Source of the DNA: Gammaproteobacteria bacterium
GTDB lineage: Bacteria > Pseudomonadota > Gammaproteobacteria > Pseudomonadales > Azotimanducaceae
Direction of reading: 5' to 3'
DNA: 64,000 nucleotides
Assembly (NCBI GenBank): GCA_028821405.1
Contig: JAPPGK010000030.1
Coordinates: 1 to 64,000, forward strand
Shown: in pieces, positions 1,980-64,000 of the stretch
Position numbering within the stretch: the stretch's first letter is position 1
How the letters are laid out: each line of letters opens with the position of its first letter
Program-made: the position numbers and the translations under genes
Notes under the pieces: model-generated
Told to the model about the DNA's origin: nothing
Database searches by the model: none
Seen by the model: only the letters and a program-made list of their open reading frames with translations

Positions 1980-4900
1980 ATGCGGACCATCACCCGGGTC
2001 CTCGCTTGGATCTGTCTGGCTGCAGCCGCCGCGCCCACCGCGGGTCGGGCCCAGGTGAACATTCCCGACGAGAATCTCCGCGCCGCAATCGAAACCGCGC
2101 TCGACAAGGCATCCGGCGCTGCGATCACCGAGTCGGAGATGGAGTCGTTGACGGTGTTGCGGGCCCAGTACGTCGGTATCAAGGATCTCACGGGTCTAGA
2201 ACACGCAACGGGACTGACGGAGCTTTACCTGTCGTACAACGACATCGAGGACCTCTCGCCTCTATCGGACCTGGAATCGCTGGAACGACTCTGGGTCGGC
2301 GACAACAGAATCTCGGACCTGGGACCGCTGGCGAGCGTGACCTCGTTGGTCGACCTTTCGTTCTTGAACAACGCCATCTCCAACCTCTCACCGTTGTCGG
2401 GCCTCCACGCGCTGGAGTACCTCGACCTGAGAGAGAATCGGGTCTCGGAGTTGGCACCTCTGACGGGCCTCGATGGGTTGGTTCGTATCTTGCTCAACGG
2501 CAACGGCATCTCGGACCTGACACCGCTCGAAGGATTGACCTCGTTGGATTGGCTCGAGCTCAACGACAACGCCATCTCGGACCTGACACCGCTCGCGGGC
2601 CTACCCGTATTGCGCATTCTCGAGCTTTCGAACAACGGCATCGCGGATCTGTCGCCACTCTCCCGCCTCGGTTCGTCTCTGCATAGTCTCGCCCTTGGAA
2701 GCAATGGGATCTCGAACCTGTCGCCGCTCGTGCCGCTGACCGAATTGGGACGTCTTGATCTCTCGGACAACCGGATCACGGACGTGTCGGCGCTAGGGGG
2801 CATGGCCAAATTGTGGTTACTCGATCTCACCGACAACCGGATCTCGAACCTAGCCCCCCTGGCGGGCATGTCGAGGATGTCGTTCCTCTATCTATCCGAA
2901 AACGAGATTGCCGACTTGTCGCCCCTGACCGGCATGAATGAATTGGAGTACCTCCATCTCTCCGACAACGAGGTCTCGGACCTGACGCCCTTGGCGGGCC
3001 TCGACACAGTGAGTGTTCTCGCGCTGTCAGGTAACGAAGTCTCCGACCTGGCCGCACTGTCGGACCTCAAGTTACTGGGGGTTCTCCATCTCGCGGATAA
3101 CCAGATTTCCGATCTCTCGGCCTTGTCTGACCTACCCGAGTTGACCTTCCTCTATCTTGCGGACAACGCTGTCTCCGACCTCTCGCCGCTGTCGGACCTG
3201 TCGGAGCTGGTCACCCTCGATCTTTCGCGCAACGAAATTTCGGATGTGTCGCCCCTATCGGACACCTCGGCACTCCAGATACACCTGTCGGACAACGAGA
3301 TTTCGGATGCAACGCCATTGAACGGTGGGCTTATCCTTACCCTCGATCTTTCACGTAACGGCATGTCGGACATTTCCTCGCTGGCAGGCATATTCGCGGG
3401 CTGGCTCCATCTCTCAGACAACGGGATAACGGATGTCTCGTCCCTTTCGGCCGTCCCTTCTACGATCTTCCTTGACCTGGCGGACAACCAGATCTCGGAC
3501 GTGTCGGCGTTGTCGGGTCTGCAATTGTGGACGCTCGATCTTTCGAACAACCGGATCGCGGATCTTTCGGCGCTCGAAGGCATGCAGTCCTTGGAATCCC
3601 TCGATGCTACTGCAAACGAGATCGTGGATATCGCCCCGGCAGCGCGCCTGCCCAACGCGCAGTTCCTTTACCTCGGCGCAAACGCGATTGCCGATGTCGC
3701 ACACCTCGCAGTCCGACCGGAGTCACTGCGTCGCGTCAGTCTTTGGCGCAACCCGCTGAACGCGGGCTCGGTCCTCACCCATATCCCCGCCATCGAGGAA
3801 CGCGGGGTCGGCATGACCGGCGGCGGTTGGCGGGTGCCGTTCTTCCCGTCTTTGGGCGGATTTCGGCAGGGCTTCGTCCGCGTCGTATCGTCGGTGGCCG
3901 GCGACTCGCTTCCGGAAGACGCGTCCGATAGCGCGTGGGTCTATCCGTCGGGGGAGGACGCCGGCCGGGCACGGCTGGGGTTGGGTGCGCGCAACGCCCG
4001 ACACTTCAACGCCGAAGATCTCGTCGCCGGCAACCCGGACAAGGGCATTCGTTCGACGATCGGTGCCAGCGACCGCCTGGACGTCTACGCCTCCGGCGAC
4101 GTCGACGTCCTGTCCTACATACGCACCGCGGACGGGTTCGTCACCAGCATGCACGACACGGCGCCGTGGCTGCCGGACGGCATGCGGCTCGACCGTCTGA
4201 GGGGGCGCGCCGTCTCGGCGTCCGGGCGGGCCTCGGGCGGGCACTTCGTACCCATCTTCAACCCGGCGAGCAATGCCAAGCAGCGCAGCATGCTGCGCCT
4301 GGTCAACGCCGGCGACGAGGACGCGGAGGTGACGGTGCACGCCGTCGACGACCACGGCGTGGCGGCGGCGCCCGTGCGGCTTGCGCTCGCCGCGCATTCG
4401 ACCCGGACGCTCTCCGCCGCCGACCTGGAGTCCGGCGAGCCGGCGGACCTCTCCGGTTCGCTCGGCGACGGCGAAGGCAAGTGGCGCCTGGTGGTGTCCG
4501 CCGACGCCGAGATCCACGTCATGAACCTGATGTCGAGTCCCACCGGCCACCTCACCAACCTGTCCACGTCGTCCGACGCCGACCTCGTCGTGCCCATGTT
4601 CCCGGCGGCGTCGCATCCGACCCGGCAGGGGTTCGTGCGGGTGGCGAACCTCGGTGCCACCGCGGGCACGGCCGAGGTCCGGGGCTACGACGACGAGGGC
4701 ACGTCCCACGGCCCCGTCACCCTAGAACTTCCCGCCGGACGCACCGTGCACTTCAACTCGGACGACTGGGAGTCCGGCAATGAGGACAAGGGACTCGAAG
4801 GCGCCGCCGGCGAGGGCGAAGGGGCGTGGCGGTTGGAGTTCGAGAGCGAACTGGACCTCGTGGTATCGGCCTACGTGCGCACGTCGGACGGCTTTCTGAC

Positions 4901-5381
4901 GAGCATGCACGACCTGGTCGACCGGAACGCCTGCGCCGCCGAGGCGGCGGAGAGCGGACCGGTCCCGGCCCGCAGCCCGCGCTCGTTCGCGTTTCGCCCG
5001 TGCCGGGACGAATCCCGCGTCCCGTTCTTCAATCCGGCGAGCAACACGCGGCAGGTCAGTTCGCTGCGGCTCGTCAACCTGGGCGACGCGGACGCCGCGG
5101 TCGCCATCCTCGGCGTCGACGACGACGGCGCACAACGCGGCCCGGCGAGGCTGTCGCTGCCGGGGGGCGCCGCATGGAACCTGACCTCGCAACAGCTCGA
5201 GTCCGGCGACGCCGACGGCCTGGTCGGCGCCCTGGGCGACGGGACGGGCAAGTGGGAGTTGCGCGTCCACGTCGCGGACGAAGCCGCAAGCGATGTCATG
5301 GTGATGAGCCTGCTGGAGAGCCCCACCGGCCACTTGACCAACCTGTCCACCTGGCCGGACGACGAGCTGCGTCTAAGATAG
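1980..5381 (+). CDS. Secreted internalin-like leucine-rich-repeat protein 1 with C-terminal A-B-A-B module
   Basis: Signal peptide MRTITRVLAWICLAAAAAPTAGRAQ; many 22-aa LRRs (LxLSxNxISDLSPL); start could also be 1923. Confidence 0.85.
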   Translation: MRTITRVLAWICLAAAAAPTAGRAQVNIPDENLRAAIETALDKASGAAITESEMESLTVLRAQYVGIKDLTGLEHATGLTELYLSYNDIEDLSPLSDLESLERLWVGDNRISDLGPLASVTSLVDLSFLNNAISNLSPLSGLHALEYLDLRENRVSELAPLTGLDGLVRILLNGNGISDLTPLEGLTSLDWLELNDNAISDLTPLAGLPVLRILELSNNGIADLSPLSRLGSSLHSLALGSNGISNLSPLVPLTELGRLDLSDNRITDVSALGGMAKLWLLDLTDNRISNLAPLAGMSRMSFLYLSENEIADLSPLTGMNELEYLHLSDNEVSDLTPLAGLDTVSVLALSGNEVSDLAALSDLKLLGVLHLADNQISDLSALSDLPELTFLYLADNAVSDLSPLSDLSELVTLDLSRNEISDVSPLSDTSALQIHLSDNEISDATPLNGGLILTLDLSRNGMSDISSLAGIFAGWLHLSDNGITDVSSLSAVPSTIFLDLADNQISDVSALSGLQLWTLDLSNNRIADLSALEGMQSLESLDATANEIVDIAPAARLPNAQFLYLGANAIADVAHLAVRPESLRRVSLWRNPLNAGSVLTHIPAIEERGVGMTGGGWRVPFFPSLGGFRQGFVRVVSSVAGDSLPEDASDSAWVYPSGEDAGRARLGLGARNARHFNAEDLVAGNPDKGIRSTIGASDRLDVYASGDVDVLSYIRTADGFVTSMHDTAPWLPDGMRLDRLRGRAVSASGRASGGHFVPIFNPASNAKQRSMLRLVNAGDEDAEVTVHAVDDHGVAAAPVRLALAAHSTRTLSAADLESGEPADLSGSLGDGEGKWRLVVSADAEIHVMNLMSSPTGHLTNLSTSSDADLVVPMFPAASHPTRQGFVRVANLGATAGTAEVRGYDDEGTSHGPVTLELPAGRTVHFNSDDWESGNEDKGLEGAAGEGEGAWRLEFESELDLVVSAYVRTSDGFLTSMHDLVDRNACAAEAAESGPVPARSPRSFAFRPCRDESRVPFFNPASNTRQVSSLRLVNLGDADAAVAILGVDDDGAQRGPARLSLPGGAAWNLTSQQLESGDADGLVGALGDGTGKWELRVHVADEAASDVMVMSLLESPTGHLTNLSTWPDDELRLR
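4017..5221 (+). repeat. Direct repeat copy 1, C-terminal module of LRR protein 1, no difference seen from 7457..8661
   Basis: Same bases at constant offset 3440; overlapping antisense ORFs 4115..4669 and 7555..8109 are identical 184-aa translations. Confidence 0.9.
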
Positions 5382-5446: not shown

Positions 5447-8400
5447 ATGAGCGTCGAAAGCCGTACGACCGCCGACCATTCTCCCGATCGGATCCGATTC
5501 GCCACCGTTCTGGCGTGGACCTGTTTCGCTGCCGCCACTGCGACAACAGCCGTCCATGGCCAGGAGGCCGACATCCCCGACGAAAATCTCCGGGCAGCGA
5601 TCGCGGCCACGCTCGGCAAGCTACCCGGGGCGGCGATCACCGTGGCCGAGCTGGAATCGTTGACGGTGCTGCGGGCCTCGCGCGACGACATCGAGGAGCT
5701 CACGGGCCTGGAACACGCCACGGGACTGGTGGAACTGCACCTGGGGTTCAACGACATCGCCGACGCCTCCCCGTTGGCGCACCTGACCGCGTTGACCACT
5801 CTCGATCTTTCCGACAACAAGATCTCGGACCTGGAACCGCTATCGGGCCTACGCTCGTTGGCGAGTCTCCGTCTTTCGAACAACCGCATCTCGACACCGT
5901 CGCCGCTGGCGGGCCTGCCCTTGTTGACCGACCTCCGTCTATCGGGCAATGGGGTTTCGGACCTGGCGCCGCTGGCCGGCATGACTTCGTTGGGTCGGCT
6001 CGATCTGTCGAACAACGGCATCTCGGACGTGTCGCCGCTGTCGGGCCTGACCGCGTTGAACAGTCTCGATCTCTCGCAGAACGGGATCGCCGACGTGTCG
6101 CCGCTCTCGGGGATGACCTCGTTGGCGATCCTCCATCTCTCTGCCAACGGGATATCCGGCTTGTCGCCGCTGGCCGGTCTGACCGCATTGGGCGTACTTG
6201 GTCTCTCGAACAACCGGGTCTCGGACGTATCGCCGCTGGCGGGCATGGCCTCGTTGTGGAGTCTCGGTCTCGCGGACAACCGGATTTCGGACGTGTCGCC
6301 GCTATCCGGGCTGACCTCTCTGGAGCTTCTCCTACTCTCCCGCAACGGCATCTCGGACTTGTCGCCGCTGGCGGGCATGGGGGAACTGGAATGGCTCGAC
6401 CTGTCCCACAACGCGATCTCGAACTTGATGCCGCTGGCGAAGCTGGGCGGATTGGAGTTCCTCGATCTGTCGCACAACGCGATCTCGGGCTTGTCGCCGC
6501 TCGGAGCCTTGGGCGAATTAGAGATCCTCGATCTGTCGGACAACGCGATCGCGGACTTGTCGCCGCTATCGGGTCTGCGCGAACTGGATGCGCTCGATCT
6601 CTCAAGGAACCGGGTCTCGAGCTTGTCGTCGCTGTCGCGCCTCCGCCTGTTAGTACTCGATCTTTCCGGCAACCGGATTTCAGACCTCTCGCCCCTAACG
6701 AGCCTTACCTTGATCAGTCTCGATCTGGCGGGCAACGAAATCAGGGACTCATCGCCGCTGTCAGGTCTGTTGTTCTTGCTCGATCTCGATCTCTCGGGCA
6801 ACCAAATCACCGATTTGGCACCGCTGCCTCCGCTATTGGTGTCCCTGGATCTCTCGCACAACCAAGTCAGAGACCTGTCGCGGGCACGGGGGCTACTGCT
6901 ACGCGCGCTCAATCTATCGGACAACGGCATCTCGGACTTGTCGTCGCTCGGGGACGCGCCCTTCTTGCGGCAACTCGACCTTTCCAACAACCGCGTGGCC
7001 GATCTGTCGGCGCTGAAGAAGACCGAGGGCGTGGAACTACTCGATATCGTCGCCAACGAAGTCGTCGACCTCACCCCGGCGGCGCAACTGTCAAGTCTTC
7101 GATCTCTTTACGTCGGAGGAAACGCCGTTGCCGATGTCATGCCGCTTGCCAGCGAACCGTTACTCCTGCGAGACGTGAGTCTATGGCGCAATCCGCTCGA
7201 CGACGTTTCCCTCGAAGTCCACATCCCCGCCATGAATCAACGAGGAGTCGGCATGACCGGCGGCGGATGGCGGGTGCCGTTGTTCCCCTCCCCGGACGGG
7301 TTCCGGCAGGGTTTCGTCCGCGTCGTATCCTCGGTGGCCGGCGAGTCGCTACCGGAAGACGCTTCCGACAACGCGTGGGTGTATGCCTCGGGGCGGAACA
7401 CCGGTCCCGTTCGCGTCCTGTTGGGCGCGCGAAGAGCCAGACACTACAACGCCAATGATCTCGTCGCCGGCAACCCGGACAAGGGCATTCGTTCGACGAT
7501 CGGTGCCAGCGACCGCCTGGACGTCTACGCCTCCGGCGACGTCGACGTCCTGTCCTACATACGCACCGCGGACGGGTTCGTCACCAGCATGCACGACACG
7601 GCGCCGTGGCTGCCGGACGGCATGCGGCTCGACCGTCTGAGGGGGCGCGCCGTCTCGGCGTCCGGGCGGGCCTCGGGCGGGCACTTCGTACCCATCTTCA
7701 ACCCGGCGAGCAATGCCAAGCAGCGCAGCATGCTGCGCCTGGTCAACGCCGGCGACGAGGACGCGGAGGTGACGGTGCACGCCGTCGACGACCACGGCGT
7801 GGCGGCGGCGCCCGTGCGGCTTGCGCTCGCCGCGCATTCGACCCGGACGCTCTCCGCCGCCGACCTGGAGTCCGGCGAGCCGGCGGACCTCTCCGGTTCG
7901 CTCGGCGACGGCGAAGGCAAGTGGCGCCTGGTGGTGTCCGCCGACGCCGAGATCCACGTCATGAACCTGATGTCGAGTCCCACCGGCCACCTCACCAACC
8001 TGTCCACGTCGTCCGACGCCGACCTCGTCGTGCCCATGTTCCCGGCGGCGTCGCATCCGACCCGGCAGGGGTTCGTGCGGGTGGCGAACCTCGGTGCCAC
8101 CGCGGGCACGGCCGAGGTCCGGGGCTACGACGACGAGGGCACGTCCCACGGCCCCGTCACCCTAGAACTTCCCGCCGGACGCACCGTGCACTTCAACTCG
8201 GACGACTGGGAGTCCGGCAATGAGGACAAGGGACTCGAAGGCGCCGCCGGCGAGGGCGAAGGGGCGTGGCGGTTGGAGTTCGAGAGCGAACTGGACCTCG
8301 TGGTATCGGCCTACGTGCGCACGTCGGACGGCTTTCTGACGAGCATGCACGACCTGGTCGACCGGAACGCCTGCGCCGCCGAGGCGGCGGAGAGCGGACC

Positions 8401-8821
8401 GGTCCCGGCCCGCAGCCCGCGCTCGTTCGCGTTTCGCCCGTGCCGGGACGAATCCCGCGTCCCGTTCTTCAATCCGGCGAGCAACACGCGGCAGGTCAGT
8501 TCGCTGCGGCTCGTCAACCTGGGCGACGCGGACGCCGCGGTCGCCATCCTCGGCGTCGACGACGACGGCGCACAACGCGGCCCGGCGAGGCTGTCGCTGC
8601 CGGGGGGCGCCGCATGGAACCTGACCTCGCAACAGCTCGAGTCCGGCGACGCCGACGGCCTGGCCGGCGCCCTGGGCGACGGGACGGGCAAGTGGGAGTT
8701 GCGTGTCCACGTCGCGGACGAAGCCGCAGGCGATGTCATGGTGATGAGCCTGCTGGAGAGCCCCACCGGACACTTGACCAACCTGTCCACCTGGCCGGAC
8801 GACGAGCTGCGAACGAGATAA
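5447..8821 (+). CDS. Secreted internalin-like leucine-rich-repeat protein 2 with C-terminal A-B-A-B module
   Basis: Same architecture as upstream gene, 22-aa LRR periodicity; C-terminus nearly identical to LRR protein 1. Confidence 0.87.
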   Translation: MSVESRTTADHSPDRIRFATVLAWTCFAAATATTAVHGQEADIPDENLRAAIAATLGKLPGAAITVAELESLTVLRASRDDIEELTGLEHATGLVELHLGFNDIADASPLAHLTALTTLDLSDNKISDLEPLSGLRSLASLRLSNNRISTPSPLAGLPLLTDLRLSGNGVSDLAPLAGMTSLGRLDLSNNGISDVSPLSGLTALNSLDLSQNGIADVSPLSGMTSLAILHLSANGISGLSPLAGLTALGVLGLSNNRVSDVSPLAGMASLWSLGLADNRISDVSPLSGLTSLELLLLSRNGISDLSPLAGMGELEWLDLSHNAISNLMPLAKLGGLEFLDLSHNAISGLSPLGALGELEILDLSDNAIADLSPLSGLRELDALDLSRNRVSSLSSLSRLRLLVLDLSGNRISDLSPLTSLTLISLDLAGNEIRDSSPLSGLLFLLDLDLSGNQITDLAPLPPLLVSLDLSHNQVRDLSRARGLLLRALNLSDNGISDLSSLGDAPFLRQLDLSNNRVADLSALKKTEGVELLDIVANEVVDLTPAAQLSSLRSLYVGGNAVADVMPLASEPLLLRDVSLWRNPLDDVSLEVHIPAMNQRGVGMTGGGWRVPLFPSPDGFRQGFVRVVSSVAGESLPEDASDNAWVYASGRNTGPVRVLLGARRARHYNANDLVAGNPDKGIRSTIGASDRLDVYASGDVDVLSYIRTADGFVTSMHDTAPWLPDGMRLDRLRGRAVSASGRASGGHFVPIFNPASNAKQRSMLRLVNAGDEDAEVTVHAVDDHGVAAAPVRLALAAHSTRTLSAADLESGEPADLSGSLGDGEGKWRLVVSADAEIHVMNLMSSPTGHLTNLSTSSDADLVVPMFPAASHPTRQGFVRVANLGATAGTAEVRGYDDEGTSHGPVTLELPAGRTVHFNSDDWESGNEDKGLEGAAGEGEGAWRLEFESELDLVVSAYVRTSDGFLTSMHDLVDRNACAAEAAESGPVPARSPRSFAFRPCRDESRVPFFNPASNTRQVSSLRLVNLGDADAAVAILGVDDDGAQRGPARLSLPGGAAWNLTSQQLESGDADGLAGALGDGTGKWELRVHVADEAAGDVMVMSLLESPTGHLTNLSTWPDDELRTR
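7457..8661 (+). repeat. Direct repeat copy 2, C-terminal module of LRR protein 2
   Basis: See 4017..5221. Confidence 0.9.
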
Positions 8822-33620: not shown

Positions 33621-34603
33621 GGGTCCGGGGCAGGTCGGGCCGCCACTCGGTCAGGGCGCAAGAGTCGCTCGGCCGCCGTTTCGCAATCCGCCCGGCTGTA
33701 GAAGCGCATCCACGCGCCGCCCGCCTTCGTCAACGCATGGAGCAGTGCCTCGACGCCCGCTTCGCCGTAGATCGGATGGGCGTTGCGGCTTGCCAATGGC
33801 TGCGGTGTGGCATCGACATGCCCGAGTAGCCGGAACAGCACGCCGCCGCCGCTCGCGACCAGGTCTTCGTAGCGGAGGATCCGCTCGTCCGGCAGGCTGT
33901 CCCCGTATTGCGCGAAGAACCAGTTGAGGACCAGCAGTTGCCGTGCGAGTCCGTCCCCGGTGCGATCGAGCACGTTGCGCAGCTCGGCGTCGAATTGTTC
34001 CCCCGCCGGGATGCGACCCCGGTTCACCGGCAGATCCACGGTTTGCCAGGACGCCAGCGCCGCCAGGGGATTGCGCACCAGGGCGACGCAGGCAAAGGAT
34101 GCCGACAGTTGCCCGAGCAGCGCCGCGAACAGCGCGTTGTGCTTGATCAGGAGCGTGAACCGGCCGGACAGTGTCTTGGCGATGTGAATCTCGCCCTGCT
34201 CGGTCTGGCGACGACGCAGACCACCCTCGGCGTCGTTCGCCACAACGTTGTCGTCGAGGCGGCCGGCCACGTGAAGCGAGGGGGCGCGCCGTTCTCGCTC
34301 GATGAGACCGCGGGTTCGAGCGACGAACTGCTCGATTCGGTCGCAGGCCGTCGCGGCCGTGATGGTGACGCTCTCGGTGCGTGCCATGGGTTCGGACAAG
34401 GCGACGAGGTCTGGCAACTCGCCCGCGAGCCGACAAGCAAGGGAACTGCCCGAACGCGGAATGCCCGTTAGCAGCCACGTGTCCGGCTGCCGCTTCACCA
34501 CCGCGCGTGTCGCCTGGAGTCCATGAGTGGATTCTAGCGTGGCGGCGCCGGCGGCCAAGCCGACGACGACTGCGGCACCAGAACCGGTACTCGGCCGCAC
34601 CAT
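33611..34603 (-). CDS. Sulfotransferase-like protein
   Basis: WLLTGIPRSGSSLACRLAGELPD; CVALVRNPLAALASW; 10-bp overlap with the GT4 fusion; start uncertain (upstream ORF runs into a repeat). Confidence 0.7.
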   Translation of the reverse strand: MVRPSTGSGAAVVVGLAAGAATLESTHGLQATRAVVKRQPDTWLLTGIPRSGSSLACRLAGELPDLVALSEPMARTESVTITAATACDRIEQFVARTRGLIERERRAPSLHVAGRLDDNVVANDAEGGLRRRQTEQGEIHIAKTLSGRFTLLIKHNALFAALLGQLSASFACVALVRNPLAALASWQTVDLPVNRGRIPAGEQFDAELRNVLDRTGDGLARQLLVLNWFFAQYGDSLPDERILRYEDLVASGGGVLFRLLGHVDATPQPLASRNAHPIYGEAGVEALLHALTKAGGAWMRFYSRADCETAAERLLRPDRVAARPAPDPCP

Positions 34604-34775
34604 CACGGCGATGGCACCGTTGAGACCAAATTGCGTGTGTCCGAGTTTCGGAGAGTGGTTTGCCATCACGGCGATGGCACCGTTGAGACCCAAATCTGTG
34701 TGTCCGAGTCTTCCGCGGCCGCACCATCACGGCGATGGCACCGTTGAGACCAAATTGCGTGTGTCCGAGTTTCGG
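34596..34775. repeat. Three direct ~50-bp repeats in a divergent intergenic region
   Basis: catcacggcgatggcaccgttgagacc(c)aaattgcgtgtgtccgagttt at 34601, 34664 and 34725. Confidence 0.92.
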
Positions 34776-36305: not shown

Positions 36306-36443
36306 AGGGGTTGCGGCACTGTCCGCCCTCGAAATCAGCGATTTCGCACACGCCGACGGGGCGATCTCGCTATCGCCGACCACCCGAAATGGCCGATCCT
36401 TGCGCCGTCCTGCCGAGAGTCGGTTTTGTGGTACGTTCCCGCC

Positions 36444-37361
36444 ATGCCTTCGACAACGCCCTCCCCGAGCGGCCGTGGCGACGCGACGCCGGCGGCCCCT
36501 TCGCATGTCCGAGCAACGCGGTCGCCGCCGCTGTCCGCGATCCATGCGCGGGCGCTGTACCGGCCGGTGGCCCCGGTCGAAGTTGACGACGACGGCTTCC
36601 CCTACAGCGACGGGTCTCTGGTGGAGTCGCAGGATCACGAAAAGGCGCGCGCGCACCTCGTCGCCGTGGTCCGGGCGCGGTTCGCCGACCGGCCCGACGT
36701 GTACGCGGCGTCCGAACTGGGGTTCTACTTCGAACAGGGCAACCGGAAGGCGCTCGTGGTGCCCGACGCCTTCGTCGCCTTCGGCGTCGACAGCCATCCC
36801 CGACTCTCCTACAAGCTGTGGGAGCAGTCCAAGGTGCCCGACTTCGTGCTGGAGGTCGTGTCGCGACGCACCTGGCGCAAGGACGTCTACGACAAGCCCG
36901 ACCTGTATGCGGCTCTCGGCATCGCCGAGTACTGGCTGTTCGACCCGTACCGGGTCCGCAGGGACGGCGGCACGGTCCTGGAGGGGCGGCGCCTCGGCGC
37001 CCACGGCCGCTGGGAACCCGTGCCGGCCGCCGCCGGGGGCGGGCTCGTCAGCGACGTGCTGGATCTCGACATTCTCGTCGACGCCGGCGACCTCCGGCTG
37101 CGCGACCGCGCGACCGGCGAGATCATGCCGGATCTCACCGAGAGCATGGCGCTAGCCAAGCGCGCGAGGGCACGGGCGGACCGGGAAGCGGGGCGTGCCG
37201 ACCCGGAAGCGGAGCGCGCCGACCGGGAAGCGGGGCGCGCCGACCGGGAAGCCAAGCGGGCCGAGGCGGCGGAGAAGCGGCTGGCCGAACTGGCGACCAG
37301 CCTACCGGGCTCGGAACACGACCACGAGCATCCCGATGCGGACAACAACCCCAGGTCGTAG
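36444..37361 (+). CDS. Uma2 family (DUF820) PD-(D/E)XK nuclease-like protein with charged repeat tail
   Basis: VPDAFVAFGV, PDFVLEVVSRRTWRKDVYDKPDLYAALGIAEYWLFDP; tail ADREAGRADPEAERADREAGRADREAKR. Confidence 0.85.
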   Translation: MPSTTPSPSGRGDATPAAPSHVRATRSPPLSAIHARALYRPVAPVEVDDDGFPYSDGSLVESQDHEKARAHLVAVVRARFADRPDVYAASELGFYFEQGNRKALVVPDAFVAFGVDSHPRLSYKLWEQSKVPDFVLEVVSRRTWRKDVYDKPDLYAALGIAEYWLFDPYRVRRDGGTVLEGRRLGAHGRWEPVPAAAGGGLVSDVLDLDILVDAGDLRLRDRATGEIMPDLTESMALAKRARARADREAGRADPEAERADREAGRADREAKRAEAAEKRLAELATSLPGSEHDHEHPDADNNPRS

Positions 37362-37405: not shown

Positions 37406-37810
37406 TCAGGCTTCGCCGGTGTCACGAGCGATGGGCATGGACAACCGACCGTGCATCTCGCCACGGAATTCGGACAGTTCCCGAGAGAGCCGATGGTGGT
37501 CCTCGGCCAACCCGTCCACCTTGTCCTCCAAGGAACCGAACCTGCTATCGACGCCATCGAACCTGCTATCGACGCCATCGAACCTCGCTTCCAGCGAACC
37601 GAAGCTCACCTCGATTCGTCCCAGCCGCCCTTCGATCTTGTCGAATCTCTCGTCGGCCCTGTCGAACCTCGCGTCGACCCTCTCGAATCGCTCGTCGACC
37701 CTCTCTTCGATGCTGCCAAACATCCTGACGAACACCCGCCAGAGAAAAAGCCCCACAACCAGCACGGAACCCACGTACGGTGCACTCGGGATGAATGCTT
37801 CAAAACCCAT
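37406..37810 (-). CDS. Membrane-anchored heptad-repeat coiled-coil protein
   Basis: N-terminal TM SVLVVGLFLWRVFV then ERVDERFERVDARFDRADERFDKIEGRL... repeats. Confidence 0.7.
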   Translation of the reverse strand: MGFEAFIPSAPYVGSVLVVGLFLWRVFVRMFGSIEERVDERFERVDARFDRADERFDKIEGRLGRIEVSFGSLEARFDGVDSRFDGVDSRFGSLEDKVDGLAEDHHRLSRELSEFRGEMHGRLSMPIARDTGEA

Positions 37811-41010: not shown

Positions 41011-44000
41011 CTACGGCTCGGGCTTGGCGTAGCCGTAGACCTTGTCGTCGATGTGGTCGGGGACGTAGAACCTGCCGTCGAAGAACGCGATGCCTTCAGG
41101 CGAGGCGTTGTCGAAGTCCAGGACGAACTCGAGCGCGGTGTCTCGATCTCCGGATGTCTCGTAGACGTAGACGCGGTCATCGGTGTTGTCGACCACGTAC
41201 AGGCGGTCCTCGGCGAACTCCAGGGCCCACGGGGTGTCGTTGGCTCGCCAAAGGTTGAACTCCCGGGTTCTGGTCCGTAGGCCGGACATCGTGTAGGCGT
41301 AGACCCTGTCGTCGTTGAGATCGACGACGTAGAGCCGGTTCTCACCGTAGGCGATCCCGTTCGGGCTGGTGTTGTTGGCGTGCAAGTCGAAATCGGCATC
41401 GGCATGGCGTTCGCCGGTCTTGCCGTATACGTAGACCTTGTCGTCCGCCCGGTCGACGACATAGAACCGGTCATCCGCGTACGCGATGGCTGTCGGGGTG
41501 CCGTTTTCGACGTCGAGCGCGAAGTCGAGGTCGGGGTTGCGAGCCGAACTGGTTCGGTACGCATAGACCCTGTGGTCCGCCGAGTCGAGGACATGGAAGT
41601 GACCGTCGGTATAGGCGACCCCCGTCGGGTTGCGGTTGTCCGCATCCAGGATGAAACCGCCGGTGGGGCCGCCGACGTCGACCGGTACCGCAACCTCCAG
41701 GGGAGAGGAACAGTTGCGCACGTCGTATTCCTCGGCCAGTGGCCCGACACACGCGCCGTAGAGGTAGTAGCCCGATTTCGCCGGCGCCTCCACGTCCATC
41801 GTGGCCACACGGGCGGCGCCTACCGCAAGGCCGTCGAAGTCGGCTGCGCCGAGTTCCTCGTCGTCCCGGTCGCCGATAAAGGTGTCCGGCGAGCGTCGAA
41901 AGCTCACCGTCGTCAGCCTCGACCTGCGGTGGCCGACGTTGCGTACGGTGACGCGTAGGGTGAAGGGCGCCCCCGCTTCGAATCCGCCAGCGCCCGCCGA
42001 GAACCACTCGACGACGAGGTCAGGCCGGTCTGCCGGGTAGGCGAACACCCGATGCCGGTCCGCCACGTAGAACCGGTCGCCGACAACCTCGACGCCCTGG
42101 GCACGACCGTTGCCGCCGGCGAGTTCGAAATCCGCCCCGGCATCTCGCTCGCCGTTGCCCCGGTAGGCATAGACCTGGTCCTCGAAGATGTCCGTGACGT
42201 AGAACCGGTCGTTGCCGTGGGCGATCCCGCGCGGCGACAGGTTGTCGCCCACCAAGTCGAAGTCGGCGGCGGGAACGCGCTCGCCGGCCGTGGTGTAGAC
42301 AAAGACCCTTCGACTTCCCCAGGCGTTGACCACGAAGAGCCTGCCGCCGGCGTGCGCAATGCCGAGCGGCTCCTGAACGACCGCGTGAAGATCGAAGCCC
42401 GCCTCGTCAAGGTGCTGCCCCGACAAATCGTAGGCGAACACCCGGCGCAAGCCGCCCGCCAGGATATCCAGGGCGTCGACGACGAAGAGCCTGTCCCCAG
42501 CGACGGTGATGCCCTCCGCCGTGTGGGTCTCGGGGGCGAGAGCGAAGTCCCGTTCGGGGATGTGCCGCCCCGAGTCGTCGTAGACGTAGACCTTGTCGTC
42601 GCGCGCATCGGGCACGTAGAAGCTGCCGCCGTGGTGGGCAAGCCCGGAGGGTGCATCGTTGTCCTCCACCAGGTCGAAGTCGTGGATTCCCGCCGACGGG
42701 GTCTCCACGATCCGCCCGGACCGGACCCTCCCGTCGACGATGACGCAGCCCCTCACGTCCCGGCACGTGTACCGGTACTCGCCCGCCTCGACATAGCCGC
42801 CTCGTTCGAAGTCGATGCGCACGATGCCGCTCACCACCGATACGACCGCGCCGCGAACCACGTCCGGCGCCGACCCGTCCGTCGGCATCGTCGCCACGAT
42901 CGCCGTCAGGTCGTAGGTGAGCCCGTCGGGGCCGCGCCGAGACGGTACCAGGAGCCGCCAAGCGAAATCGGCCGTGCCGTCGCAAGAGACCAGGCGACCC
43001 GAAATGCGCGACTCGAAGGTCAGTTCGGTCGTGCAGGCGCCGCCATCCTCGCCCTCAAGCTCGATGGACGCCGTTGCGCGGCCGGTCCTCGTGTACGAAT
43101 AGCTCCCTTGGGTCGCCTGCCCGTCCTTCGTCTCCCGATAGCGGCCGATGGCGGAAACGTCGATGTAGGGGTTCCCGTCGCCCTGGACGATCCGCTTGCC
43201 GACAAAGCGATCACCGAACGCCGAGGCGTTGGCCGGGGCGAAGTTCGTGGGCACGCTGGACAGGTTGGTCAGATGGCCCGTTGGGCTCTCCAGCAGATTC
43301 ATGACCACGAGCGGTGCGTCCGAGTCGACCCTCAACCGCCATTTGCCCGTACCGTCGCCCAAACTGCCCTCGAGGGCCTCGCTGCCGGCTTCGAGATCCT
43401 CCGCATCCAACATCACGGTCTGCCCGGCCGCAATCGACAGCCTGACACCGGATCCCGGTGACGCGCCGAGGTCGTCCATGCCCGTGACCAACACCTCGGC
43501 CGTGACCACGCCAAGGTTCTGGAGCCGCAGGCGGCTGGCCTGGTCATCGTCGCCGAAGGGCTCAAAGGTCGCGATTCGATAGCCGCCACCGATCCCGGCA
43601 ACGGTTTCTTGCATCGGCGTCAGGAATTCGTCGTGGTCGGTGCGAACGAAGGACAGCACCTCGATGTCGAGGTCGCTTAAGAGACTCAACCGCCAGTCGC
43701 CGCTTCCCGCCCCGATGCCGGTCAGGCCCAGTTCGGCATTGCCGGTCTCGAGGTCGGCGGTATTGAACAGCACCGCCTGGTTCGCACCGACCGTCAGCGT
43801 GAAAGGCTCGTGGTCCGCACCCGATGCGTCGGCTGCGTCGATGGTCACTGTCCCGGACGTGTCCGATCGGTTGACAACGCGGACCACGCCTTGGCGTCGG
43901 GACCCGTCGGACGTGCCCGGAAAGAGCGGCGCCGAGTGCGGTTCGGGCTCGGCGACGGACGATGGCACGGAGACGAGATTCGCGTATTCGCCCGTTAGGT

Positions 44001-44757
44001 TCTCCACCAGGTTCATCACCCTGATCGGACCGTCGGCGTCTACGAACAGCCGCCACTTGCCCGACCCGTCGCCCAAAACGCCTTCGAACGTGCTGCCGCG
44101 TTCCAGGCGGCTGGCGCTTATTTTTCGAGAAGCCCGGCCCGCAACCGGCACGACGACCTCGCCCGAGGCATTCCCCTGGTCGTCGACTCCGGTGATCGTG
44201 ACGGCCACCGGGTCCGAACCGGCATTGACGAGACGCAGGCGGCTCGCCGCCTCGAATTCATCGCCGGGGTTGAAGAAGCCCACGCGATATCGGTCGTCGC
44301 CGTCGATGCCCACGACCTCGTGCACCGAGGCGACGAACCCATCGCCGGTGCGGGTGTAGGCGAGCACCTCGATGTCCAGGTCGCTCGCGAGTTCCAGACG
44401 CCAGTCGCCTCGACCGGATCCGGTGCCGGGTGTCAGCCCCTTCGCCGCGTTGCCGGTCTCCAAGTCCTCGGAGTTGAAATGGAGAACCTCGTGGGCACCT
44501 ATGGAGAGCTCGCGCGGGCCGATCCTGTCGCCAGAGTCGTCGATCGCGTAGAGCCGTATCGAACCCGACCGGGAGGAGTGGTTGATGATGCGGACGAGGC
44601 CCTGGCGCTCGCGATCCGATGCCGCAGGGAACAACGGCACGTCGTGGTTGGCGCCGAGAGGCAACGCAATGCCGGCAACCAATCCCGTGGTCAACCCGCC
44701 GCGAAGCCGGCGGAGCATGCTGCCGTATCGACGAGGGCAAATCACGCCGATGGACAT
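41011..44757 (-). CDS. Large secreted protein: N-terminal A-B-A-B module, NHL/YVTN-like beta-propeller repeats, inserted CARDB-like domain
   Basis: Repeats DFxLxxxNxxPxGIAxxxxRFYVxDxxDDxVYxYxxxG; CARDB-like RPDLVVEWFSAGAGGFEAGAPFTLRVTVRNVG; A/B modules resemble those of the LRR proteins. Confidence 0.82.
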   Translation of the reverse strand: MSIGVICPRRYGSMLRRLRGGLTTGLVAGIALPLGANHDVPLFPAASDRERQGLVRIINHSSRSGSIRLYAIDDSGDRIGPRELSIGAHEVLHFNSEDLETGNAAKGLTPGTGSGRGDWRLELASDLDIEVLAYTRTGDGFVASVHEVVGIDGDDRYRVGFFNPGDEFEAASRLRLVNAGSDPVAVTITGVDDQGNASGEVVVPVAGRASRKISASRLERGSTFEGVLGDGSGKWRLFVDADGPIRVMNLVENLTGEYANLVSVPSSVAEPEPHSAPLFPGTSDGSRRQGVVRVVNRSDTSGTVTIDAADASGADHEPFTLTVGANQAVLFNTADLETGNAELGLTGIGAGSGDWRLSLLSDLDIEVLSFVRTDHDEFLTPMQETVAGIGGGYRIATFEPFGDDDQASRLRLQNLGVVTAEVLVTGMDDLGASPGSGVRLSIAAGQTVMLDAEDLEAGSEALEGSLGDGTGKWRLRVDSDAPLVVMNLLESPTGHLTNLSSVPTNFAPANASAFGDRFVGKRIVQGDGNPYIDVSAIGRYRETKDGQATQGSYSYTRTGRATASIELEGEDGGACTTELTFESRISGRLVSCDGTADFAWRLLVPSRRGPDGLTYDLTAIVATMPTDGSAPDVVRGAVVSVVSGIVRIDFERGGYVEAGEYRYTCRDVRGCVIVDGRVRSGRIVETPSAGIHDFDLVEDNDAPSGLAHHGGSFYVPDARDDKVYVYDDSGRHIPERDFALAPETHTAEGITVAGDRLFVVDALDILAGGLRRVFAYDLSGQHLDEAGFDLHAVVQEPLGIAHAGGRLFVVNAWGSRRVFVYTTAGERVPAADFDLVGDNLSPRGIAHGNDRFYVTDIFEDQVYAYRGNGERDAGADFELAGGNGRAQGVEVVGDRFYVADRHRVFAYPADRPDLVVEWFSAGAGGFEAGAPFTLRVTVRNVGHRRSRLTTVSFRRSPDTFIGDRDDEELGAADFDGLAVGAARVATMDVEAPAKSGYYLYGACVGPLAEEYDVRNCSSPLEVAVPVDVGGPTGGFILDADNRNPTGVAYTDGHFHVLDSADHRVYAYRTSSARNPDLDFALDVENGTPTAIAYADDRFYVVDRADDKVYVYGKTGERHADADFDLHANNTSPNGIAYGENRLYVVDLNDDRVYAYTMSGLRTRTREFNLWRANDTPWALEFAEDRLYVVDNTDDRVYVYETSGDRDTALEFVLDFDNASPEGIAFFDGRFYVPDHIDDKVYGYAKPEP

Positions 44758-44767
44758 TAGCACGTCC

Positions 44768-45212
44768 CGCGTGGGATTCACGGGAGCATCAGGGTTAGGA
44801 GAGTGCCGCTGCTTGGTGTGGGATGGATTCGTGTGTGTCCGGATTTGGGTGCGTCCGGATATGAGGGCGCGTGGGATTCACGGGAGCATCAGAGGTGGGA
44901 GAGTGCCGCCGCTTCGTGTGGGATGGATTCGTGTGTGTCCGGATCTGGGGTGCGGATTTGGGGTGCGTGTCCGGATTTGGGGTGCGTCCGGATATGGGGG
45001 CGGGGATTCACGGGAGCATCAGGGTGGGAAAGCGCCGCCGCTTCGTGTGGGATGGATTCGTGTGTGTCCGGATTTGGGTGGGATTTGGGTGCGTCCGGAT
45101 ATGGGGCGCGTGGGATTCACGGGAGCATCAGGGGTGGGAGAGTGCCGCCGCTTCGTGTGGGATGGATTCGTGTGTGTCCGGATTTGGGGTGCCTTCCGGA
45201 TTTGGGGTGCTT
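44768..45212. repeat. Tandem array of four ~100-133 bp units filling the intergenic region
   Basis: (gcgtg)ggattcacgggagcatcag...gagtgccgccgcttcgtgtgggatggattcgtgtgtgtccggatttggg at 44768, 44868, 45001, 45107. Confidence 0.93.
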
Positions 45213-47285
45213 CTATCGGAGGCGGACTCCCAGCCGGAGGCGCACCGTTCGCGGCTCCAAGGGATGGAAATGCGTGTCGAGCACCCCGTCTGCGGGTTCT
45301 CCCGGGAGCCGGGAGTGATAGGAGTAGGCGATGTCGTCGTCGCTGGAGTCGAACAGGTTGAACACGTCGACGCCGAATTCGGCGCGACGGCCGTGCCAGC
45401 CGATTCCCGCATGCGAGAGCCAGGACGGGTCGGAACGGATGCTGCCGTCATCGCTCAGCGGCGCTTCGCCCAGAAAACGCGCATTCACGCTCACGTGGAA
45501 GCCCCTTCCCAACAGCGCGTTCACGCCGACGTTACCGGTCGCACCCACGGCACCGGCCACTTCATCCCCCGTCTCCAGTTCCGCGTTGCTGCGGGCGAAA
45601 GCCGCGTTGACGGTCAGCCAATCCCGCGCCTGCCAGAAGCCGGCCATCTCCAGCCCCCGGCGCACAGATCCGTCGCTGGGTTCGGTGCTCCCCGCGTCAC
45701 CGACGTAGACCAACTCGGAGTCCAGTCTCAGGTGGAAGCCGACCAGCGTCGCGTTGAACGACGCCGTCGGTTCGAACCGTAGCCCGATTTCCGCGCCCTC
45801 GCTGGACGAGAGCAAGTCCACGCCGCCGATGCCAGCCGCGGCACCATCCGTGTCAGGGCCCACGCGAGCATCGTTGGAGTGAAACCCTCGGCCCCAGTTC
45901 GCATACGCTTCGAGCCCGTCCAGGATGCGGTACGCCACACCGAACTTGGGACTCGTGAGGCTGTCGTCGCCGGCGACACGATACGCCTCGCCGAGACCAG
46001 TCGCCTCCCAGTCGTAGTAATCCGCACGAAGCCCCAGCGTGGCCCGGACCCGGTCCGTGGCATACACGCTCAGTTCGCCGTAAGCGCCAACGGAGTCTTC
46101 CTCAAGGCGGTCCTGCCTCAGGACGCGGTGTCGCACCCTCGCCTGGGTGCCGTAGAGCCCCACCTCGTGGATGTCGTCCCGGCGCGCCTCGACACCCCAA
46201 CGCAATAGGACGGGTTGCCCGGCGAGCCGAATGTTCCGCTCCGCCCCAACCCAGGCGCCGCTCATCGTGCGACGGTCGCGCTGCTCGAATTCATCGCCGA
46301 GCACGGGGTCGTCGAGTTGGTAGGTGAAATTCGAGAACAAGGTCAAATCGTAGTCGAGCCGATACGCCCCGGCGCGCCAACCCTCGCCCTCGAGCCGCGC
46401 GACGACACCGAGGCGGCCCGTGTCGCCGCCGAGGTCGGGATCAATGTATCCCGTGCGGGGCACCAAGCCCGCACGCACGACACGCCGAGGAATCTGGTCG
46501 GTCGCATTCCACCGTCCGGTGTACCCGTGCAGCGCTACATGCGCCCGAGTCGATCCGAACCATAGCCCGTAGCCCAGGAAGAACTTGGACTGCGCGAGAT
46601 CTTCGTCGAGCCGCCAAGGTCCTCGGTATAGGGTCTTGTCGACGGCGCCGGTCAGCACGCCGTCGCCGATGTCGGTACTCCCCCCCGCGACACCCCGGAC
46701 GTAGCCGTGTTGGCCCAGCGCAAGCTCGGCAAAGGGCTCGGGAAGGCGTTCGTAGTAGGAGAAGTCGACGCTGCCAGCCGACGAAAAGTCGCCTTTCTCG
46801 GCATGGTGGACGCCCTTGCGGTACACCGCCGTCTGCACGAGTTCGGGGATGATGAAGTTGAGATCGAGATAGCCCTGTCCATGGCCATGGGAGCGCATGT
46901 TGATGGGTACGCCGTCCAGGTGGACAGCGAAGTCGGTGCCGTGGTCGAGGTTGAATCCACGCAGAAAGTACTGGTTTGCCTTGCCCGTTCCGGAGTGCTG
47001 GGTGGCGACCATGCCCGGCACGGCCTCGACCAGCTCGCCGACGCGCAGCAACGGCGGCAGGTGATAGTCCGCGTAGCCGACGACGCCTTCCGAGGCCGAT
47101 GTCGCAGCGCCGATGTGGTGCTGGGCGCGGCCGTAGACGATGATCTCTTCGTGGATTTGGGGTTGGGCACGATCGTCGTCGTGCCCGGCGTCCGACTCGC
47201 CGAACCCGGGGATGGCAAGCAGCCCCAAGGAAACCGGCAATAGCCACTCCCAATGGCAGCGGGGGCTCTTAACCCCTATGGACAT
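45213..47285 (-). CDS. TonB-dependent outer-membrane receptor
   Basis: Plug domain EEIIVYGRA...LLRVGELVEAVPGMVATQHSGTGKANQYFLRGFNLDHGTDFAVHLDGVPINM; C-terminal strand TVRLRLGVRLR; start could be 47336. Confidence 0.9.
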   Translation of the reverse strand: MSIGVKSPRCHWEWLLPVSLGLLAIPGFGESDAGHDDDRAQPQIHEEIIVYGRAQHHIGAATSASEGVVGYADYHLPPLLRVGELVEAVPGMVATQHSGTGKANQYFLRGFNLDHGTDFAVHLDGVPINMRSHGHGQGYLDLNFIIPELVQTAVYRKGVHHAEKGDFSSAGSVDFSYYERLPEPFAELALGQHGYVRGVAGGSTDIGDGVLTGAVDKTLYRGPWRLDEDLAQSKFFLGYGLWFGSTRAHVALHGYTGRWNATDQIPRRVVRAGLVPRTGYIDPDLGGDTGRLGVVARLEGEGWRAGAYRLDYDLTLFSNFTYQLDDPVLGDEFEQRDRRTMSGAWVGAERNIRLAGQPVLLRWGVEARRDDIHEVGLYGTQARVRHRVLRQDRLEEDSVGAYGELSVYATDRVRATLGLRADYYDWEATGLGEAYRVAGDDSLTSPKFGVAYRILDGLEAYANWGRGFHSNDARVGPDTDGAAAGIGGVDLLSSSEGAEIGLRFEPTASFNATLVGFHLRLDSELVYVGDAGSTEPSDGSVRRGLEMAGFWQARDWLTVNAAFARSNAELETGDEVAGAVGATGNVGVNALLGRGFHVSVNARFLGEAPLSDDGSIRSDPSWLSHAGIGWHGRRAEFGVDVFNLFDSSDDDIAYSYHSRLPGEPADGVLDTHFHPLEPRTVRLRLGVRLR

Positions 47286-47589
47286 CAGCGTTCTGTCCCC
47301 GGTCGAGCAGGTGTCCCTGAGCATCAACGCCAGCATGGCTTCCTCGGTCCACGACCGCGCCCAAGGCGACGCCGTGGTTCTCGCCGAACGTCGTGAGCGT
47401 GAGGGCCTCCTCCGAATGTGTTGCCCGCCATTGCACTAGCTTAACAGCGCTGGCAACGACCTAGGGCTCTTGGGGCTCTTGGGGTGGGTGGATGGAACCG
47501 CCAAAGCTCGGCTCGTGGGCCGCCATGTCGGCAGTCTATTCTCCGGTTGGCTACAAGCCCTAGTACGAGCAAGCGTGAGACCTATGATC

Positions 47590-48924: not shown

Positions 48925-50826
48925 CTAGTAAGTCGTGGTGTCGAGCTGACCCGTGCCCAGGTTCTCCTGGATCGTCATGACGTCGACAGCGGTACGTGGG
49001 GCCGTAAGACTCAAGATGCCCGAAGCGCGGGGCGCCCTCGCCTCGTCACTTGAATCCAACATGTCCTGTACCCGGACGACCATCCTGGACCTGGGCTTTA
49101 CGGTGCCACTGATCGAGCCCGTGATGGCGACGCCTTCCTCGGTCTGGAAGTCGTCCATCCAGAAACCGGCATCCCGAGTGCCATGGTTCACGATCACCAG
49201 CCGCTGGTTGTAGGCCAGGTTGGTGCTCAGGTACGAAATGTTGACCGTCGTGCCGTTGCGGGCGATGGCACCGGCGGGGCCGCTCGCCTCCGGACCGTTG
49301 ACCCGAGCGGTCGCCGGACCACTCATCGGCGTCACGGTCATCAGATAGCCGTCCAACATCCTGTCGTCGCCAACGGCGGGAATCGCCACTTCGTTTGTGC
49401 CGACATTCACACAAAACTGAAACGGCCCCCCGCCAACGACCGTTGCGATGCCTTGGGTCGCGGCCGCGGAAAACGTCGGATCGGTGTCGGCCGTCGGGTT
49501 GATCGCCACTAAGTCGCCATCCGCGTCGGGGGCTCTCAATGTCAGCGCGGCACCGGTGCAGGAAGGGGGCTGGCCTTCTGCGGGGACTGGACCCACCCTG
49601 AAGGCTTGCGGCGAACCGCCTGCGTTCAGCACAGCGTCGGTCTCGATCGTGGGGGTGGCGGGGTTGTCGCCAGTGCGCCTGCGTTCGCCATTGGGGCCAT
49701 CGCCGGCGCCGTTGCCGAACCCGAATGCCCCGGCGGTATCTGACGTAACCACGACCCGGGCGGCTGTGTTGACTGTCCCCTCGAACTCCTCGCCGTCGGA
49801 CGCATCCAGGAACACACTCTCATCAACCATCGTGGCGGGATCATCCGCCTTTACGTTGAGGGTTACCCTCGCCAGCACGCCTACGTCGGTCGAGGGTCGC
49901 GTGAAGACGCGAAACGGTCCGCCGGTGGACACGTTTCTCTCCGGATACCCGACGTCCGCTGTCGCAAGCATCGGCGTGATCGTCGGTGCGGCGATCTTGG
50001 GCGCCACCTCGAACAACGTCCCGTACCCGTGAACCAGGTACGTGTCGGGGACATCGACGGGATCGGTCGCCCGCGCGGCGGCACGCGCGTGACCGAGTGA
50101 CCGGTAGATGAACAGATCGCCCCGGTACGTCGCCGCACCGACGTCGTCGATGGCCAAGCGCCCTTCGCCGAGCGCCAACCGGACACGGGTGTCGATGGGG
50201 ATGTCGTGCTCGCCAGCGAGTTCGATCTTGTAGACGCCCGCAGAATCGGTTGCTTCGCCTCTGAACGCGCGTACGAGGTTTATGTCCGCGAGGCAGGGAT
50301 TGGTGTTGTTGACATCGGCCGGGGTGCCGGCGCACGAGAGGTACTCACCGTTGACTGCGGTCACTGGAGGGGTGGCGGTCGGGTTGCCTTGCACGTTCGC
50401 GATCTTGCTGTAGAACCGGAAGCCCGTCACCTCGCCGAGCATGGGTTCCCTCGGCGCTACAACAGGTGTGACACCCACATCGCTGCCCGATGTACCCGCC
50501 ACGTCTGGTCGATGCGCAATCGGAGCCTCGTTGGGTTCGATGTCCTGCGTAAGCTGCGCGGACCAGAAGTTGACGACCAGGTAGTAGTCGTCGTTACTCT
50601 CGAGCGAGGTGTCCAGTTTGAAGTCCAGCACGATGTCACCGACCGGGGTTGCGGTGATCGAGTAGGGAGCGTCTCCGGAGAGACTCTCGGCCGCGAACGG
50701 ATGATCCGGTGCGGCAGCCGCCCCGAATGCCCCGACGATGCCAACGATCCCGAGCACACGGGCCACGGCAGCGCCCATGGTGGGTCTCAAGACCACTGTC
50801 TGCGCCGGGCTCTTCCCAACATTCAC
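48925..50826 (-). CDS. Secreted hypothetical protein, candidate surface/structural protein; paralog of 63184..64000
   Basis: Hydrophobic N-terminal segment VLGIVGIVGAFGAAAAPDHPFA; C-terminal ~230 aa closely matches the paralog, both ending VMTIQENLGTGQLDTT(T/M)Y. Confidence 0.75.
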   Translation of the reverse strand: MNVGKSPAQTVVLRPTMGAAVARVLGIVGIVGAFGAAAAPDHPFAAESLSGDAPYSITATPVGDIVLDFKLDTSLESNDDYYLVVNFWSAQLTQDIEPNEAPIAHRPDVAGTSGSDVGVTPVVAPREPMLGEVTGFRFYSKIANVQGNPTATPPVTAVNGEYLSCAGTPADVNNTNPCLADINLVRAFRGEATDSAGVYKIELAGEHDIPIDTRVRLALGEGRLAIDDVGAATYRGDLFIYRSLGHARAAARATDPVDVPDTYLVHGYGTLFEVAPKIAAPTITPMLATADVGYPERNVSTGGPFRVFTRPSTDVGVLARVTLNVKADDPATMVDESVFLDASDGEEFEGTVNTAARVVVTSDTAGAFGFGNGAGDGPNGERRRTGDNPATPTIETDAVLNAGGSPQAFRVGPVPAEGQPPSCTGAALTLRAPDADGDLVAINPTADTDPTFSAAATQGIATVVGGGPFQFCVNVGTNEVAIPAVGDDRMLDGYLMTVTPMSGPATARVNGPEASGPAGAIARNGTTVNISYLSTNLAYNQRLVIVNHGTRDAGFWMDDFQTEEGVAITGSISGTVKPRSRMVVRVQDMLDSSDEARAPRASGILSLTAPRTAVDVMTIQENLGTGQLDTTTY

Positions 50827-59452: not shown

Positions 59453-59640
59453 GAGTTTCCACCGTGCTTCCTCGATGCTTGAGTTCCTTGGTTCATCGCC
59501 GATCGGGCGCACCCTGCGGGAGGAATCCGCGCTCATGGTCACCGCAGTTGACGATCCCTAGCCAAGGCCGGGCCTGGTACCAACCTATCGCGGGGCCACG
59601 AACCGCCGCGCGTTGGCCAAGCGCGTGGCGCACGGTCGGT
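59453..59640 (+). pseudogene. 5' stub of a deleted second GT2 gene copy
   Basis: gagtttccaccgtgcttcctcgatgcttgag...ccgcagttgacg...acctatcgcgggg...cgcgcgttggccaagcgcgtggcg aligns with 55516..55710. Confidence 0.82.
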
Positions 59641-59688
59641 AAACGACCGGTGACGACCGCGCGACAAGGCTTAGCGGGCGCGTTTTCG

Positions 59689-63183: not shown

Positions 63184-64000
63184 CTAGTACATCGTGGTGT
63201 CGAGCTGACCCGTACCCAGGTTCTCTTGGATCGTCATGACGGAGACAGCGGCCTCACGCGCCGTGAGGTTCAGGGTGCCCGAAGCGCGGGGTGCCCCGAT
63301 CTCGTCGCTTGAGTCCAACATGTCCTGCACCCGGACGACCATCCTGGTTCCCGCCTTGACGGTGCCACTGATCTCGCCCGTGATGGAGATGCCTTCCTCG
63401 GTCTGGAAGTCATCCATCCAGAAATCGGCATCCCGACTGCCACGGTTGACGATCACCAGCCGCTGGTTGTAGGACAGGTTGGTGCTCAGGTACGCAATGT
63501 TGACCGTCGTACCGTTGCGATCGATGGAACCGGCGGCGCCACTCTTAGCCGGACCGGCCGACCTACCGGTCGCCGGACCACTCATCGGCGTCACCGTCAT
63601 CATGTAGCCGTCCAACATCCTGTCGTCGCCAACGGCGGGAATCGCCACTTCGTTGGTGCTGACGTTCACACACAACTGGAACGGTCCGCCGCCACTTACG
63701 GTTGCGGCACCCTGGTTCGCCATTGCCGAGAACGTCGGATTAGTATCGGCCAACGGGTTGATCGACACCTGATCGCCGTCCGCGTTGGGGGCGCTCAGCG
63801 TCAGCGCGGTGCCTCCGCATGTGGCACCGACTGCGCCAACCCTGAAGGCCATCGGTGCGCCGCCTGCATTGAGGACGTAGTCGGTCTCGACCGCCGGGGT
63901 GTCCGGATTGTCGCCGGTGACCCTGCGCTCCTTGTCGCCGGCACCGTTGCCGAACCCGAAGGCACCGTCCACAGTAGAGGTGACCACGACCCTGGCGGCC
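63184..64000 (-). CDS. Secreted hypothetical protein (5' part beyond window), paralog of 48925..50826
   Basis: DDRMLDGYMMTVTPMSGPAT, WMDDFQTEEGISITGEISGTVKAGTRMVVRVQDMLDSSDE...TIQENLGTGQLDTTMY. Confidence 0.75.
   Translation of the reverse strand, partial: AARVVVTSTVDGAFGFGNGAGDKERRVTGDNPDTPAVETDYVLNAGGAPMAFRVGAVGATCGGTALTLSAPNADGDQVSINPLADTNPTFSAMANQGAATVSGGGPFQLCVNVSTNEVAIPAVGDDRMLDGYMMTVTPMSGPATGRSAGPAKSGAAGSIDRNGTTVNIAYLSTNLSYNQRLVIVNRGSRDADFWMDDFQTEEGISITGEISGTVKAGTRMVVRVQDMLDSSDEIGAPRASGTLNLTAREAAVSVMTIQENLGTGQLDTTMY

Follow-up and report, generated by a model that had tools for sequence, protein, structure and literature searches.

A terminal A-B-A-B module of predicted ASRT fold on dozens of secreted proteins of one gammaproteobacterium and its relatives

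Introduction

Three proteins encoded in a stretch of 64,000 nucleotides from a gammaproteobacterium of the Azotimanducaceae (the whole stretch is called the window below) carry the same array of repeated units, A-B-A-B, on otherwise unrelated scaffolds. This raises the questions of what the units are, how widely they are used and what such an array contributes to the proteins which carry it. A preliminary description, made from the DNA sequence, took it for a mobile paired beta-sandwich serving as a stalk or anchor, possibly from an unnamed domain family.

A point of comparison is the ASRAH superfamily, for which sugar binding was predicted from gene context and from the ethanediol in TM1070 (De Souza et al. 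2009, PMC2739507). Its hallmarks are a tryptophan starting strand 1 and an asparagine, almost invariant, which ends strand 2. The free-standing ASRT protein forms tetramers, and the fused ASRAH families occur as dyads or tetrads. The ligand residues SHEshChhN define only the ASRT-like family, other ASRAH families carrying their own residues at these positions (PMC2739507). The superfamily also includes actinobacterial lipoproteins with a lipobox cysteine after the signal peptide and with WhiB, glycosyltransferase and zincin-like neighbours. Separate work on ASRT deals, at least in part, with DNA looping (PMC8660804).

The reading which we favour here, and to which we give about an even chance, is that A-B-A-B is a single-chain pseudo-tetramer of ASRT fold which docks secreted proteins to a polymer of the cell surface or matrix, probably a glycan.

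Results

The module in the three window proteins

The A-B-A-B repeat is present in the three proteins at the places described, and six A and six B units of approximately 105–115 residues were located. The shared module on LRR and propeller scaffolds is thus borne out. Its N-terminal position in the third protein, P0003, is correct on the minus strand, where the gene runs from a GTG at 44781 to a stop at 41011; the plus strand of 41011-44757 is interrupted by stops. P0003 starts with a signal peptide, followed by A-B-A-B, a further domain and propeller repeats of the NHL/six-bladed type which are interrupted by a CARDB domain. The features are as follows.

1980..5381, plus strand: P0001, LRR protein, 1133 aa; signal peptide, internalin-like LRR, then C-terminal A-B-A-B
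2157..3779 (approximate limits), plus strand: LRR region of P0001 (Pfam LRR_4, E 1e-66)
3828..4160, plus strand: unit A1 of P0001, a divergent A (HMM)
4248..4562, plus strand: unit B1 of P0001 (HMM)
4590..4910, plus strand: unit A2 of P0001 (HMM)
5019..5345, plus strand: unit B2 of P0001, ending approximately 10 aa from the stop (HMM)
5447..8821, plus strand: P0002, LRR protein, 1124 aa; tandem paralogue of P0001 with the same layout
5669..7186 (approximate limits), plus strand: LRR region of P0002 (Pfam LRR_4, E 1e-75)
7262..7600, plus strand: unit A1 of P0002, a divergent A (HMM)
7682..8008, plus strand: unit B1 of P0002 (HMM)
8024..8356, plus strand: unit A2 of P0002 (HMM)
8453..8791, plus strand: unit B2 of P0002 (HMM)
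41011..44781, minus strand: P0003, 1256 aa
44317..44646, minus strand: unit A1 of P0003, modelled alone (pLDDT 92)
43972..44289, minus strand: unit B1 of P0003
43603..43938, minus strand: unit A2 of P0003
43255..43581, minus strand: unit B2 of P0003
41014..42714 (approximate limits), minus strand: propeller region of P0003 with Vgb_lyase/NHL-like repeats (Pfam PF17170, PF01436, PF07705)
approximately 41746-42024, minus strand: CARDB insert in the propeller region

Several other features of the window were recorded. A tandem repeat of approximately 100–110 bp, in roughly two to four copies (44768-45192), lies just upstream of the P0003 gene and extends into its start codon; a TonB-receptor-like gene (45213-47336, minus strand) is found on its other side. 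Tandem repeats of 21 bp occur at the end of a putative Uma2-like ORF (36426-37361) and behind it (37179-37264 and 37537-37705), short-period repeats at 15324-15679 and 61-bp repeats at 34593-34775. Two neighbouring and closely similar membrane proteins with long TPR-like tails (56755-59292 and 59464-62442) appear to be a tandem duplication. Two paralogous proteins (48925-50826 and 63184-63999, both minus strand) have C-terminal parts which look faintly unit-like (YNQRLVIVNHGTRDA...), a relationship to the units which remained unsupported for these C-termini (best E 0.4).

Extent in the genome and variety of payloads

With one A unit as query, 72 matches were obtained in the genome, reaching E 5e-39 outside the window, and B units were retrieved as weaker homologues. 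The pattern is therefore not due to chance. The preliminary description also proposed a search for the module on other scaffolds, and approximately 24 module proteins were found in this genome (in 19 fetched regions around the matches and in the window). According to Pfam, their payloads include M9 collagenase with LRR (two proteins), M12B metalloprotease with LRR, purple acid phosphatase with TSP3 and HYR, a beta-lactamase-type hydrolase, CBM60, CARDB, cytochrome-c-like and PSCyt domains and glucose/sorbosone dehydrogenase, as well as a GmrSD-type nuclease domain slightly below the Pfam cut-off. A closed genome of the same genus has 54 A-B matches and, together with two other genera, adds trypsin with PPC, FGE-sulfatase domains and PKD; payloads in two further genera include subtilase, M12B, cyclophilin and an SBBP propeller. 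One bacterium and its relatives thus place the module, most often as two A-B pairs, on one end of dozens of differing secreted proteins, where it probably serves as a tag for docking to a surface.

A short haem-type motif (CVNCHVEGG or similar) follows the N-terminal module in many proteins (L031, L033, L045, L094, L104, L114, L123), and a cytochrome-like part therefore appears to be a favoured partner of N-terminal modules.

Unit number and placement

The regularity of the module was assessed in 84 ORFs from four genomes. The order is ABAB in 49 and AB in 26 (75/84 together); the others carry one unit or an irregular number, and several of these ORFs are short or truncated. The module is C-terminal in 39 of the 84, N-terminal in 34, occupies the whole ORF in nine and is internal in two: apart from the whole-ORF cases, it is terminal in 73/75. 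C-terminal modules end 0–55 residues from the stop (median 7 aa, 30/39 within 13), and the 34 N-terminal modules sit behind the signal peptide region. Among the 73 AB or ABAB proteins of at least 300 aa, a signal-like hydrophobic stretch is present in 68, a further transmembrane-like stretch in only four and a lipobox-like match in two, which are the collagenase pair and are both doubtful; these tests used simple hydropathy and regular expressions rather than trained predictors. Other recognisable anchors are nearly absent from the module proteins.

Many secreted enzymes bear Ig-like repeats, and the module may similarly be a passive spacer or stalk, in which ligand-free Ig-like sandwiches hold the functional domain off the cell or off other domains. 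Indeed, module proteins also contain PPC, CARDB, Calx-beta, PKD and TSP3 domains. However, spacers tend to sit between other domains and to differ freely in copy number, whereas the module has two or four units at one terminus, and its loop motifs (e.g. HFNSxDLExGN and GHLTNLST) are strongly conserved. We consider a spacer unlikely, although it is the leading rival; the stalk of the preliminary description is not the best reading because unit number is nearly fixed and position terminal.

A terminal module common to very different cargos, and ending approximately 4 aa from the stop in many of them, would also be expected of a secretion or sorting signal for an outer-membrane export machine, with a role like that of the C-terminal domain of type IX cargo. 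Such a signal would not be expected at either end of proteins or, in its N-terminal copies, directly after an ordinary signal peptide, and 225–465 residues would be very large for it. This is the last of the rivals in order of likelihood and in our view highly improbable. A cleavable sorting tag was likewise ranked low, the module being found at both ends.

Predicted fold and conserved residues

The AlphaFold2 model of one A unit (P0003 A1, with ten aligned units) has a pLDDT of 92.3, a pTM of 0.83 and eight strands, strand 2 being formed by residues 14–22. When this model was compared to the PDB with Foldseek, the best 16 matches were all ASRT chains (probability 1.00, E from 2.3e-4), with TM1070 (1nc7) a few ranks below (TM up to 0.70, probability 1.00). 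The query TM of ASRT/TM1070 matches was mostly 0.57–0.70, and other folds among the matches listed reached at most 0.45. The first A-B pair of P0003, modelled from window sequences alone (pLDDT 77), again matched ASRT. The unit is thus confidently predicted to be a beta-sandwich of ASRT topology. At the sequence level, the A-B profile retrieved ASRT 2ii7 among four PDB hits (E 0.5), with the strand 2 asparagine aligned; T-cell receptor chains among these borderline hits were taken as chance.

The best two-domain structural match by E-value (3.6e-4, with a TM of only 0.26) was XepA from the lytic cassette of prophage PBSX (PDB 6i56). Like the A-B pair it includes two beta-sandwiches in one chain, but XepA is pentameric and its sandwiches are C2-like (PMC6834076).

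Of 124 A units and 122 B units, 99% and 98%, respectively, keep the strand 2 arginine. Asparagine N22 is present in 95% of the A units and the corresponding asparagine in 94% of the B units. Strand 1 reads VPLFP or VxxFNP, with a conserved phenylalanine. The conserved arginine, Asp, Asn and Gly could have a structural rather than a binding role.

Relation to known families

Taken in isolation, the P0003 module scores 29.1 bits and the P0002 module 28.4 bits against Pfam DUF5719 (PF18986), above its gathering cut-off of 26.2, while the full-length window proteins fall just under it (23.0–24.7 bits). Elsewhere, scores of 34.4 (another module protein of this genome) and 41.7 (a module protein of a relative) were obtained, and 10 of 39 relatives have matches above the cut-off; many of the matches span the junction between units. 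Paired beta-sandwiches on unrelated scaffolds, plausibly anchors, stand as first described, and the idea of an unnamed family does not, since the modules pass the DUF5719 cut-off and have a predicted ASRT fold. The preliminary description had named a well-characterised family of known function as the match which would tell against it. DUF5719 is a Pfam family but its function is unknown, so the match does not amount to that refutation; no mention of the family was found in the literature searched. Strict A/B differentiation, tetrads and dozens of payloads per genome are features of the module which set it apart from DUF5719.

The ASRT family (PF07100) gave at best 23.2 bits with an isolated module (E 7e-5), below its gathering cut-off of 25. 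The module resembles the ASRT/ASRAH superfamily (PF07100; PDB 2ii7-2iia, 1nc7) in its predicted fold, in the asparagine ending strand 2 and in forming dyads and tetrads. In contrast to this superfamily, it has phenylalanine in place of the strand 1 tryptophan, is secreted and is found at protein ends on many payloads. The ligand His and Cys of the ASRT-like SHEshChhN motif are also replaced, at least 98% of units having arginine where the motif has Cys. In addition, unlike the actinobacterial ASRAH lipoproteins, only 2/73 module proteins have a lipobox-like match by regular expression. Sequence and model together suggest that the module is a divergent branch of DUF5719 with an ASRT fold and not ASRT itself. 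We infer that DUF5719 may be the actinobacterial ASRAH family of PMC2739507. A weak match of one stretch of the P0003 module to the S-layer protein Slr4 (PF19526) was also observed (24.0 bits, cut-off 25).

Divergence and homogenisation of A and B

A and B are homologous (hhalign probability 99.7, E 1.5e-25, 33% identity). In a tree of tetrad units, a single branch with full support separates 92/92 A units from 92/92 B units, and first and second copies are intermixed. The A/B split therefore predates these genomes, and tetrads have gone through repeated re-formation or homogenisation. In G704 and G023, which represent two other genera, 10/10 proteins examined are four-unit proteins (one is cut by a contig end) and most of their units have near-equal scores with the A and B models, suggesting from the sequences that the undifferentiated tetrad may be the older state.

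Homogenisation may also be recent. A tract of 1,207 bp is identical between the two LRR genes (4017-5223 and 7457-8663, plus strand; an exact match) and lies inside the module, whereas the LRR parts of the P0001 and P0002 genes share only approximately 55–75% DNA identity. The two modules are therefore not independent copies. A second tandem pair, at locus L035 (5634-8123 and 8369-10858), has 1,027 identical bases across the N-terminus and module and a different payload. Identical tracts in the modules of tandem paralogues with differing payloads point to gene conversion, although recent duplication followed by fast payload change, or an assembly error, could also account for them. The collagenase pair has its longest stretch of identical DNA outside the module, so gene conversion would not be module-specific.

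The differentiation of A and B and the retention of their order would be expected of complementary faces, and hence of protein-protein docking, in which tetrads, and paired dyads, would assemble mutually or with a common surface scaffold protein rather than with a glycan. The coexistence of dyad and tetrad proteins in one genome and the tetramerisation of free-standing ASRT (PMC2739507) would also be in keeping with this, but the published context of ASRAH favours sugars (PMC2739507). We rank protein docking behind the spacer and think it rather improbable.

Spread among genomes

The genome sets searched with the A-B profile were samples and not censuses. Within the same family, 27 of the 101 genomes gave a match, and these represent 10 of 37 genera. 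Outside the family, the order sample (196 genomes) gave just one weak match, at a contig edge; none was obtained in the 273 other genomes of the class sample (274) or in the 398 others of the phylum sample (399), and no plasmid record matched. In the samples searched, the spread of the module is essentially limited to one bacterial family. The module can be called mobile, as it initially was, only inside this family, and no mobile element was observed. We rejected the idea that the module is itself such an element, since plasmids yielded no match and the only occurrences seen beyond the family are the contig-edge match and one phage contig.

The latter, IMG/VR contig IMGVR_UViG_3300025034_000048, has terminase and portal genes and encodes a secreted protein of 266 residues with a single A-like unit at its end (L088:4548-5348, plus strand). 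The gene is located just before small membrane-protein and endolysin-like genes, a context which the prophage match to XepA recalls.

Discussion

The fold, the unit numbers and the terminal placement of the module are supported by the analyses above. How the ASRT-fold pseudo-tetramer which we favour might work can be outlined from them. Two or four tandem units would replace the dimer or tetramer of a free-standing ASRT protein and would close, within one chain, to give a pseudo-dimer or pseudo-tetramer. A polymer of the surface or matrix, probably a glycan, would be bound at the strand 2 face, with the near-invariant arginine standing where TM1070 has its ligand-contacting cysteine. Once bound to the polymer, the module would keep its payload at the surface or in the matrix. 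Pseudo-tetramer closure, the ligand and surface retention are steps that we infer, and sugar binding by ASRAH domains is a prediction too.

A wider proposal starts from a tetrameric sensor fold which occurs free-standing: one bacterial family would have converted it into an (AB)2 pseudo-tetramer, a single chain with two types of unit, and would use this at either chain end as a general surface-docking tag on a large share of the proteins that it secretes. We put this forward tentatively, as possible rather than probable.

If our reading is right, DUF5719, a family of unknown function, would gain a fold, a role and a candidate face for binding, and dozens of the proteins encoded in these genomes could be grouped as surface-displayed by means of a common tag. 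The module would also provide a clear case of a homotetramer which became a tandem chain and then diverged into two unit types, with relatives that keep four largely undifferentiated units.
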